NCBI GenBank assembly: GCA_017432885.1
Contig: JAFRIE010000018.1
Coordinates: 1 to 64,000 of the forward strand
Source: Erysipelotrichaceae bacterium
GTDB taxonomy: Bacteria; Bacillota_I; Bacilli_A; Erysipelotrichales; Erysipelotrichaceae
Reading direction: 5' to 3'
Length of the DNA stretch: 64,000 bases
In this document: piece by piece, positions 14,508 to 63,080 of the stretch
How the letters are laid out: each line of letters opens with the position of its first letter
How positions within the stretch are numbered: the stretch's first letter is position 1
Program-made: the position numbers and the translations under genes
The notes under the pieces: generated by a model
Database searches by the model: none
Seen by the model: only the letters and a program-made list of their open reading frames with translations
What the model was told of the DNA's origin: nothing

Positions 14508-14695
14508 AAAAGGTGGCACTAAGGGCGCCAAAAGCGCGTTACCACCTTTATTTCTAACTCTTATTCTTAACGCGAACGACACGTGGAGTATTAATCCAGC
14601 TAAGAAGTGAATTCCCTGATCATCCTGTTAGAACATCTCAGCATATAGTTCATTCTCTTGAACATTCAGGATCAGTTACTAGTCTTCTTTATGCG
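14508..14695 (-). promoter_or_regulatory. T-box leader of pheST, specifier UUC (Phe)
   Basis: The T-box sequence AAGGTGGTAACGCG is at 14536-14549. The terminator pairs AAGGTGG (14543-14549) with CCACCTT (14510-14516), followed by T-rich sequence. Stem I lies upstream; on its 3' side the specifier loop reads GGGAA-TTC-ACTTC with TTC at 14609-14611, matching Phe. Uncharged tRNA-Phe should favour the antiterminator and switch on pheS-pheT and the two genes behind them. The leader begins at the very end of rplA and no separate promoter was found. Confidence 0.9.
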
Positions 14696-14699
14696 ATTC

Positions 14700-15380
14700 T
14701 TAAGCGATATCGATCTTGATACCAGGACCCATGTTGCTGGAAATGGTGCAGGACTTAATGTATGTACCTTTTACAGCAGCCGGTTTTGCTTTGTTTATGA
14801 CTCCCAGTAAAGCATCAAAGTTTTCAGCAAGTTTTTCTGTCTCAAAAGAAGACTTTCCGATCAGACAGTTGATATTGCCTTCCTTGTCAACACGGTACTG
14901 AACTTTACCTTTTTTGATTTCTTCAACAGCTTGTGCAATGTTCGGTGTAACAGTTCCGGTTTTAGGGTTTGGCATCAGACCTCTAGGGCCTAAAAGCTTA
15001 CCTAACTTACCAAGTTCACCCATCATGTCAGGTGTAGCGACGATGATATCGAAATCAAACCATCCACCTTTGATTTTTTCCAGGATCTCTTTATCACCGA
15101 CATAATCTGCACCGGCATTCTTTGCGACTTCCATATTCGCACCCTGTGTAACGACCAGGATCTTCTGGGATCTGCCGGTTCCGTTTGGAAGAACGGTAGC
15201 GCCACGGATCTGCTGATCAGCCTGACGAGGGTCGACATTCAGATTGAATGATACTCGAATAGAAGCATCATACTTTACGGTAGTAGTTTTCTTTGCCAGT
15301 TCACATGCTTCAACAGGAGAATACTTCTTTCCCTGTTCGATCAAGGCTTTTGAGCTGTTATAATTCTTTGAACGTTTCAT
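14700..15380 (-). CDS. rplA: Ribosomal protein L1 (uL1)
   Basis: 226 residues. Forms the L1 stalk and is the expected translational repressor of the rplK-rplA transcript. Signature GPRGLMPNPKTGTVTP near residue 130 and the N-terminal KALIEQGKKYSPVEAC. The start overlaps the rplK stop by one base, so the two are translationally coupled. Confidence 0.97.
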   Translation of the reverse strand: MKRSKNYNSSKALIEQGKKYSPVEACELAKKTTTVKYDASIRVSFNLNVDPRQADQQIRGATVLPNGTGRSQKILVVTQGANMEVAKNAGADYVGDKEILEKIKGGWFDFDIIVATPDMMGELGKLGKLLGPRGLMPNPKTGTVTPNIAQAVEEIKKGKVQYRVDKEGNINCLIGKSSFETEKLAENFDALLGVINKAKPAAVKGTYIKSCTISSNMGPGIKIDIA

Positions 15381-59815: not shown

Positions 59816-61561
59816 TCAACTACTTTTTTTTATCTCCAGAGATAGGAAATCCAACTGATCCTGATCGACCGTATTCGGTGCATCCGACATCAGACAGTAG
59901 GCTGTTGCCGTCTTCGGGAACGCGACAACATCCTTGATATTGTCTGTTCCGGAAAGGATCATGATCAGTCTTTCCAGACCAATACCGACACCGCAATGCG
60001 GAGGAGCGCCGTAATCAAAGGCTTCAATAAAGAATCCGAACTTGTTTCTGATCTGCTCTTTCGTCAGTCCTAAAGCATCAAAGACTTTTGCCTGCATTTC
60101 AGAATTATGGATCCTTACAGATCCGGATAAGAGCTCATATCCGTTTAAGACCAGATCGTAGGCTCTGGAGTAGCAGTTTGCCTGATCACTGATAAGTTTA
60201 TCAACATCTTCGTCACGCGGTGCAGTAAATGGATGATGAGCAGAGACCCATCTATTTTCTTCCTCGGAATACTCATACATCGGAAATTCGGTGATCCATT
60301 CAAAGCAGTATTTTGATTTGTTGATTAGTCCGAGTTCTTCACCCAGTTTCTTTCTGACCGCTCCCAGAGCCGTCTGGGCAACGGATTTCTTGTCGGCGAT
60401 CATCAGGACAACATCTCCATTTTCAAGACCCAGCTGATCTCTTAATGCCTGTTTCTCCTCATCTGGAAGTGCATTATTAAGGGATCCGCTAAAGGCGTCA
60501 TTCTCATATTTCAGATAAGCAAGCGCCTTTGCCTTGTATATCTTGACGAACTCCGTTAATTCATCGAACTTTTTACGTGAAAGTTTATCGGAAGCTCCTT
60601 TAAATACCAAAGCCTTAATGATGGCTCCTGCAGCAATACTGTTTTTAAATACTGCAAACCGGGAATTCTTGAACAATTCCGTGACATCACACATCGGGTT
60701 TCCAAAGCGAAGATCCGGTTTATCGGAACCGTAAAGATCCATTGCTTCGACATAAGGGATCCTCGGAAACTGAAGATTGTCGATACCCTTGGTTTCCTTG
60801 AAGATCGCTTTCATGACTTTTTCGACTTCACAGAAAATATCTTCTTCATCGGCAAATGACATCTCGATATCGATCTGTGTAAATTCGGGCTGTCTGTCGG
60901 CTCTCAGATCTTCATCTCTGAAACACCGGGCGATCTGGAAATAACGGTCCATGCCGCCGATCATCAGCAGCTGTTTATACTGCTGTGGGGACTGCGGAAG
61001 TGCATAGAACTTTCCTTTATACAGCCTGGAAGGAACCAGATAGTCACGTGCTCCTTCCGGTGTAGATTTCGACAGGATCGGCGTTTCAACTTCAACAAAG
61101 TCATCTTCGTGCAGGACTTTTCTGACGATCGTCGTCACCTTATCTCTTAACAGTAACTTTTCCTTGATCGGATTTCTTCTGATATCCAGATAACGGTATT
61201 TCAGTCTTATGTCTTCCAAGGCATCTGTTTCATCTGCAATGATCATTGGCGTCGTTTTGGCCGTAGATAATACTTTGCAGCTCTCCGCCAGCACTTCGAT
61301 CTCACCGGTCTCCAGTTTTGGGTTAGCAGTCTCTTTGATTCCTACCGTGCCTTCCACTTCAATTACATATTCGTTTCTGATATCTTTTACCAGTTCGGAA
61401 TGGCTTTCGTCAAAAGTAAGCTGCGTGATGCCGTATCTGTCCCTCAGGTCGATAAAAACGATAGATCCGAGATTTCTTCTCTTCGCGACCCATCCTGCCA
61501 GTCTGACGTGTTTTCCCGCATCGCATTTTCTTAATTCACCACATGTATGATCTCTATTCAT
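59816..61561 (-). CDS. aspS: Aspartyl-tRNA synthetase
   Basis: 581 residues, bacterial type with an N-terminal OB anticodon-binding domain (GWVAKRRNLGSIVFIDLRDR), class II core (TPEGARDYLVPSR, FRDEDLRADRQPEFTQIDIE) and a GAD insertion (about 280-420), ending with motif 3 GVGIGLERLIMILSG. Starts eight bases before the hisS stop, so it shares the T-box leader. Confidence 0.97.
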   Translation of the reverse strand: MNRDHTCGELRKCDAGKHVRLAGWVAKRRNLGSIVFIDLRDRYGITQLTFDESHSELVKDIRNEYVIEVEGTVGIKETANPKLETGEIEVLAESCKVLSTAKTTPMIIADETDALEDIRLKYRYLDIRRNPIKEKLLLRDKVTTIVRKVLHEDDFVEVETPILSKSTPEGARDYLVPSRLYKGKFYALPQSPQQYKQLLMIGGMDRYFQIARCFRDEDLRADRQPEFTQIDIEMSFADEEDIFCEVEKVMKAIFKETKGIDNLQFPRIPYVEAMDLYGSDKPDLRFGNPMCDVTELFKNSRFAVFKNSIAAGAIIKALVFKGASDKLSRKKFDELTEFVKIYKAKALAYLKYENDAFSGSLNNALPDEEKQALRDQLGLENGDVVLMIADKKSVAQTALGAVRKKLGEELGLINKSKYCFEWITEFPMYEYSEEENRWVSAHHPFTAPRDEDVDKLISDQANCYSRAYDLVLNGYELLSGSVRIHNSEMQAKVFDALGLTKEQIRNKFGFFIEAFDYGAPPHCGVGIGLERLIMILSGTDNIKDVVAFPKTATAYCLMSDAPNTVDQDQLDFLSLEIKKSS

Positions 61562-62825
61562 AATAGTCCTCCATGAGCTGCTGCAGCCTTGCAGACAGTT
61601 CTTCTTTCTTTACTGTTTCCTGAGCCTTGGTCAGTGTATCTTTTAAAGTAACCGTCTTTTCCTTGACTTCATCTTCACCGATGATCAAAACAAATCTGGC
61701 ATTCTTTCTTTCCGAAGATTTAAACTGAGCTTTTAAAGAACGTCTGTAATAGTTCATCTCAACGGTCAGCCCTTCGTTTCTTAAATCATTAACAACTTGT
61801 ATCATGTAATCAGGATCTTCATTCAGGTTGATCGCATAACAGTCAACGGATGTCTGATACGCTTCGAAGATCTCTTCCGCTTCGGCCAGGATCAGCAGTC
61901 TCTCGACGCCGATCGCAAAGCCGATTCCGCTCATCTGCGGTCCTCCCATCTCTTTGATCAGATTGTCATAGCGGCCTCCGCCAAAGATCGTTGCCTGTGA
62001 ACCGGATGCTTCATTTGTACTCACGACTTCGAATACTGTATCAGTATAGTAGTCAAGCCCCCTGACCAGTTTGTCATCGATCTCATAAGGGATCTGCATA
62101 ATGTCAAGATAGTGCTTAACTTTATCAAAATAAATCTGCGATTCTTCATTTAGAACCATTTTCGGAGCATTTGCGATGAGTTCACTGCCATGGTCGACCT
62201 TGCAGTCCAAGATGCGTAAAGGATTCTTATACAACCTGCTTCGGCAGTCGGCACAAAGCTCATCCTGATGTGGTTCGAAATACGAAATCAGTTGATCCTT
62301 GTATTTCAGTCTTGATTCATTATCCCCTAATGAATTTAACAGAACTTTAACGCCGTTAAGTCCGATTGCCTTGATATAGAAATAACCCAGGGCAATCACT
62401 TCTGCGTCGATCAGCGGATCCTTATCGCCTATGGCTTCGATACCCATCTGGGTAAACTGGCGCTGTCTGCCTTTCTGTGGTCTTTCATGACGGAACATTT
62501 CTTCCACATAAGCCAGTTTTACCGGCATTTCCGGTGAACCGTACATTTTGTTTTCAACGAAACTCCGGACAACACCTGCCGTTCCTTCCGGCCTCAAAGT
62601 AAGTGAATCTTTCCCGTTAGGAGAAAAGGTGTACATCTCTTTGGTTACCATATCGGAAGTATCGTTCTCTTTCTGAAATACACCCGTATATTCAAAAACA
62701 GGGGTCTTGATTTCCTGGTAGCCATAGAGTTCCAGAAAATGACGGAACAGATCTTCCAGTTCCCGGAATTTCAGCAATGTTTCCGGTAAAAGATCATAGG
62801 TTCCTTTAACTGTCTGATACGGCAT
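61554..62825 (-). CDS. hisS: Histidyl-tRNA synthetase
   Basis: 423 residues. GTYDLLP at the N-terminus, motif 2 FRHERPQKGRQRQFTQMGIE, HisA box LVRGLDYYTDTVFE and GGGRYDNLI. GGAGG is nine bases before the ATG at 62823-62825; an ATG at 62834 abuts the SD with zero spacing and is unlikely. Confidence 0.97.
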   Translation of the reverse strand: MPYQTVKGTYDLLPETLLKFRELEDLFRHFLELYGYQEIKTPVFEYTGVFQKENDTSDMVTKEMYTFSPNGKDSLTLRPEGTAGVVRSFVENKMYGSPEMPVKLAYVEEMFRHERPQKGRQRQFTQMGIEAIGDKDPLIDAEVIALGYFYIKAIGLNGVKVLLNSLGDNESRLKYKDQLISYFEPHQDELCADCRSRLYKNPLRILDCKVDHGSELIANAPKMVLNEESQIYFDKVKHYLDIMQIPYEIDDKLVRGLDYYTDTVFEVVSTNEASGSQATIFGGGRYDNLIKEMGGPQMSGIGFAIGVERLLILAEAEEIFEAYQTSVDCYAINLNEDPDYMIQVVNDLRNEGLTVEMNYYRRSLKAQFKSSERKNARFVLIIGEDEVKEKTVTLKDTLTKAQETVKKEELSARLQQLMEDYYE

Positions 62826-62846
62826 AGTTTTCATCCTCCTTATAAA

Positions 62847-63045
62847 ATAAAACGTCCTGTCTAAGGACGTTAATCACGCGGTACCACCTTAGTTCATATC
62901 CGAAGATATGCACTTTACGCTTTAACGCAGCTGCTGCGGCTTACTCTCATAAGCTTCAAGGAAGTGTCCCTCAGTATTCCTCATGAAGCCTCTCACCGTA
63001 TACTTCTCGCTTTGAATCGGAACAATGATTCTTTTCCTTATCGAT
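62847..63045 (-). promoter_or_regulatory. T-box leader of hisS-aspS with overlapping Asp/His specifier
   Basis: The T-box AAGGTGGTACCGCG is at 62877-62890. The terminator pairs AACGTCC with GGACGTT (62865-62871 and 62851-62857) followed by TTTATTTT. In the specifier loop on the 3' side of stem I the sequence is GGGACACTTCC: GAC (62966-62968) and CAC (62964-62966) share one base. The base pattern after GAC (ACTTC) equals that after the TTC of the pheS T-box. Confidence 0.92.
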
Positions 63046-63051
63046 AACTGA

Positions 63052-63080
63052 ATTCTAGCACTATTTGATCGCTCTTTCAA
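63052..63080 (-). promoter_or_regulatory. hisS promoter inside the end of relA
   Basis: TTGAAA (63075-63080), 17-base spacer, TGC-TAGAAT (extended -10, 63052-63057). The -35 lies in the relA coding region and the spacer covers its stop codon. Confidence 0.68.

Follow-up and report, generated by a model that had tools for sequence, protein, structure and literature searches.

T-boxes ahead of hisS-aspS operons in Firmicutes have been described as carrying a characteristic GACAC, in which an Asp codon (GAC) overlaps a His codon (CAC), and tRNA-Asp was proposed as the tRNA with which they chiefly interact (Gutierrez-Preciado 2009, cited in PMC5313534). The Asp/His overlap in hisS-aspS T-boxes is thus already known. 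According to TBDB, many T-boxes allow several specifier frames (PMC7778990), and in a drug-target study a leader of this operon is classed as a histidine T-box (PMC7927825).

The leader analysed here lies in a 64,000-nucleotide stretch of DNA from an Erysipelotrichaceae bacterium, hereafter the window. It has in common with the leaders described in PMC5313534 the operon, the GACAC in the specifier loop and the proposed tRNA-Asp partner. Very probably it is an ordinary transcription-attenuating T-box that reads tRNA-Asp alone, via GAC at 62968-62966, and controls both hisS and aspS. Judging from related leaders, the His codon CAC is most likely a by-product, appearing because the Asp specifier ends in C and is followed by the A-C that is usual in T-boxes.

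Anatomy of the hisS-aspS leader

The minus strand reads GGGACACTTCC. Within it, GACAC occupies exactly 62968-62964, a site in the specifier loop of the T-box leader (62860-63053) that precedes hisS and aspS. The earlier note had placed overlapping Asp and His codons here and had assigned HisRS and AspRS to the operon; both points are borne out, by the position of the pentamer within an RF00230 match and by NCBIfam equivalogs for the two genes. At 77.7 bits the leader falls short of the curated gathering cut-off of RF00230 (93), and it is picked up by E-value only. The features of the locus are given below.

62860..63053, minus strand: T-box leader RNA of the hisS-aspS operon; full-length match to Rfam RF00230, 77.7 bits, E 6e-17, below the gathering score of 93
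62966..62968, minus strand: specifier codon GAC (Asp), invariant in 95/95 hisS-aspS leaders
62965, minus strand: base after the specifier, A, a generic T-box purine (A in 91/95 leaders; A or G in 63/69 controls with XXC specifiers)
62964, minus strand: last C of the apparent overlapping CAC (C in 85/95 leaders; at least 10 changes on the tree), adjoining the Stem I lower helix
62958..62963, minus strand: 3' arm of the Stem I lower helix, TTCCTT; its partner in the minimum-energy fold is AAGGAA at 63034-63039
63034..63039, minus strand: 5' arm of the Stem I lower helix, AAGGAA, in the minimum-energy fold
62877..62889, minus strand: T-box sequence AGGTGGTACCGCG, one mismatch to the consensus, in a predicted antiterminator with a 7-nt bulge
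62851..62871, minus strand: intrinsic terminator hairpin followed by a T run (-9.9 kcal/mol, z -4.1)
63052..63080, minus strand: promoter-like site TTGAAA-17-TAGAAT, from a consensus scan
61554..62834, minus strand: hisS, histidyl-tRNA synthetase (NCBIfam equivalog TIGR00442, 469 bits)
59816..61561, minus strand: aspS, aspartyl-tRNA synthetase, overlapping hisS by 8 bases (NCBIfam TIGR00459 / NF001750)

In the predicted fold, the 3' strand of the specifier loop in Stem I is GGGACAC. Relative to the usual distance of a specifier from the lower helix, GAC is too far by one base and CAC too close by one. Because the two codons flank the usual place of the specifier, the geometry of the leader alone does not decide between the frames. 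By fold and by conservation in all 95 leaders, the Stem I specifier that matches a downstream gene is GAC, for aspS. The conserved AGGGTGGNACCGCG with a UGGN bulge is represented in the predicted antiterminator by AGGTGGTACCGCG, where the bulge is TGGT and its variable base is T at 62883, and a competing intrinsic terminator precedes the coding region. The -35 element of the promoter-like site falls within the 3' end of a relA/spoT-like coding region. GACAC occurs 49 times in the window, and the bare pentamer is therefore uninformative; a chance pentamer is ruled out by its specifier-loop position and by the fact that 82 of 95 related leaders share it.

By analogy with the T-box family, uncharged tRNA-Asp would pair with GAC in Stem I, and its NCCA end would pair with the TGGT bulge by way of a G73-U wobble. 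This pairing would stabilize the antiterminator, such that hisS and aspS are transcribed together and HisRS expression is tied to the charging of tRNA-Asp. If tRNA-Asp alone is read, a shortage of aspartate, not of histidine, is what induces HisRS in these bacteria, and the histidine T-box label given to such leaders (for example in PMC7927825) is wrong.

Conservation of the two codons and of A-C in control leaders

Loci for hisS were gathered across the class and the genus, leaders with a T-box core were aligned, and the five bases were read in 95 leaders, all followed by aspS. Changes were counted by a quick method on a tree of HisS proteins. Manual realignment of one leader (L150) and a possible inserted base in another (L331, GACAGC) leave the picture unchanged. 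The five bases are GACAC in 82 leaders, GACAA in 6, GACAG in 3, GACGC in 2, GACCC in 1 and GACGT in 1. Where a two-codon T-box would keep both codons, GAC is present in 95/95 leaders with no change on the tree, and CAC, found in 82/95, is absent from 13 and changes at least 12 times, with at least 4 changes at position 4 and at least 10 at position 5. Six of the 13 leaders that lack CAC belong to the window's own genus (GACAA 4, GACAG 1, GACGT 1), and all six still precede hisS-aspS. A distant hisS-aspS leader from Paenibacillus, placed by the Rfam model, reads GAA-T-GAC-TT and has no CAC; four Listeria loci, from a genome search with Listeria HisS, all read AAAAGACACTCTC. Three further loci of the window's genus (L338, L347 and L348) have hisS-aspS directly behind another coding region and without a T-box leader.

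The conservation of all five bases, which the earlier note had named as a check, does not hold, given that positions 1-2, which serve GAC only, are invariant and positions 4-5, which serve CAC only, vary repeatedly. Free variation at the non-shared bases, named beforehand as speaking against dual sensing, is nearly reached: 4-5 vary, 1-2 never do. That note had allowed either for one leader sensing both tRNAs by a shift of register or for tRNA-Asp only. With GAC invariant and CAC repeatedly lost, the comparison favours tRNA-Asp only and speaks against dual sensing.

Other T-boxes of the same order with a specifier ending in C, other than CAC, served as controls (n=69). A-C comes next in 33/69 of them, and C is at position 5 in 47/69. 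The strict T-box core pattern GGTGGNANCRYG missed most pheS leaders, which were instead read by the GAA-TTC motif; GAA-TTC-AC is found in 22/30. The comparison with the pheS T-box made in the earlier note holds, with the pheS leader of the window (14518-14700) reading GAA-TTC-AC. Most of the pheS leaders L161-L190 lack the strict core, yet their Stem I reads GAA-TTC-AC. Because A-C is common in the controls and in pheS leaders, a spurious CAC is expected often after an XXC specifier. An overlapping second codon is thus the default expectation at such sites, and a claim of dual sensing needs evidence from both conservation and the bulge base. A-C is commoner in hisS-aspS leaders (82/95) than in the pooled XXC controls (33/69; Fisher p 1e-7, a value that ignores relatedness), and not clearly commoner than in pheS leaders (22/30; p 0.16). 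Given the higher conservation of A-C than in the pooled controls, there is a slight chance that in most lineages keeping GACAC the leader responds mainly to tRNA-Asp and weakly also to tRNA-His in a shifted register, which would account for the extra A-C conservation.

Split operons, histidine leaders and the bulge base

In two genomes (G005 and G017; loci L362 and L363), hisS and aspS are several kilobases apart. Each stretch has a single T-box, which reads GAA-GAC-A-C and stands immediately in front of aspS; no T-box was found in these stretches at hisS, which lies upstream of the aspS leader. In these two genomes, then, the T-box follows aspS, and GACAC persists with no hisS downstream. The genes between hisS and aspS in G005 resemble, as judged from their sequences, a cassette for the uptake of sugar (LacI type, PTS, sucrose hydrolase type and fructokinase type). 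A search of the class for hisS-only leaders with GACAC found none, and where aspS does not follow hisS, no leader with the core motif was present. In the family f22 (genomes G139, G263, G105, G277 and G112), hisS lacks a leader, and a search at E <= 1e-60 found no AspRS similar to that of the window; a different type of AspRS may be in use there.

Leaders that do serve histidine genes differ from these. Two genomes (G161 and G291) that carry a GACAC hisS-aspS leader also have a second T-box before hisZ-hisG (L218 and L245), which reads GAA(A)-CAC-A-T and has A as its bulge base. Similarly, the leader of hisS on the Tetragenococcus plasmid pHDC, where there is no aspS, reads CAC-A-T with bulge base A. 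The base after the CAC frame, A in these authentic His leaders, is T in 68 of the 82 GACAC leaders.

In the 95 hisS-aspS leaders the bulge base is T in 62 and C in 33, and never A or G. In the window's genome, tRNA-Asp ends in G-CCA and tRNA-His in C-CCA. As predicted from these sequences, T or C in all 95 leaders can pair with G73 of tRNA-Asp and would not be compatible with C73 of tRNA-His, so that a bulge base fitting both tRNAs is not found. T is also the commonest bulge base in T-boxes with other specifiers, and a bulge T alone is therefore weak evidence; more weight falls on the 33 leaders with C and on the fact that none has A. Serine and tryptophan tRNAs generally have G73, and the leaders with these specifiers mostly have C as the bulge base. 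Outside the window, the same genome holds a second tRNA cluster (G000:C55:39984-42020; Ala, Gln, Pro, Asp, Met, Glu, Ile-TAT, Gln), which is separate from the chromosomal tRNAs and may derive from a mobile element or phage.

Rival readings and known systems

A dual sensor, in which either GAC pairs with tRNA-Asp or CAC pairs with tRNA-His in a shifted register, such that a shortage of either induces both synthetases, is suggested by the presence of both synthetases in the operon, by the retention of GACAC and the enrichment of A-C over the pooled controls, and by the predicted geometry of the two frames. TBDB, moreover, allows frames -1, 0 and +1, and it exempts His from the discriminator test, since in tRNA-His this base can pair within the tRNA itself (PMC7778990). 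It is nonetheless an unlikely reading, given that CAC is lost repeatedly across the tree and GAC never, that GACAC stays with aspS once hisS is split off, that true His leaders in the same genomes differ both in the bulge base and in the base following CAC, and that C73 of tRNA-His cannot pair with T or C. That the leader is read through CAC by tRNA-His alone, as the label given to the S. aureus homologue in PMC7927825 implies, would fit with hisS as the first gene of the operon. However, the invariant codon is GAC, true His leaders differ in register as well as bulge base, and the leader of the split operon serves aspS. This reading is already contradicted by L042, L339 and L355, which lack CAC and retain GAC, and it is scarcely credible.

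Compatible with a leader that reads only tRNA-Asp is the proposal that what maintains positions 4-5 is the structure or stacking of Stem I, with a C-G pair atop the lower helix, rather than a codon. In constrained folding, C at position 5 pairs with G in 46/95 leaders and the sole T variant (L355) pairs with A, making structure a plausible reason for conservation of this position. The Rfam consensus also has A-CC after the specifier. Against it, 39 leaders with C, that of the window included, have no confident pair for position 5, and on balance a structural constraint is somewhat favoured.

The preferred reading, a T-box specific for tRNA-Asp, can be set beside three known systems. One is the two-codon T-box of Clostridium acetobutylicum (Saad et al. 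2013, cited in PMC7778990). Like the leader of the window, it offers candidate specifiers for two tRNAs in a single RNA. Both tRNAs were reportedly shown to bind it, whereas in the hisS-aspS leader the second codon is not conserved. The His T-boxes that precede hisZ-hisG and the hdc-linked hisS are alike in having CAC in the specifier loop and unlike in having A after CAC and A as the bulge base; those before hisZ place CAC behind GAA(A) with the usual spacing. From the Firmicutes hisS-aspS T-boxes, as described in PMC5313534, there is no essential difference. The window provides an added member, and its relatives add the leaders without CAC and the split operon.
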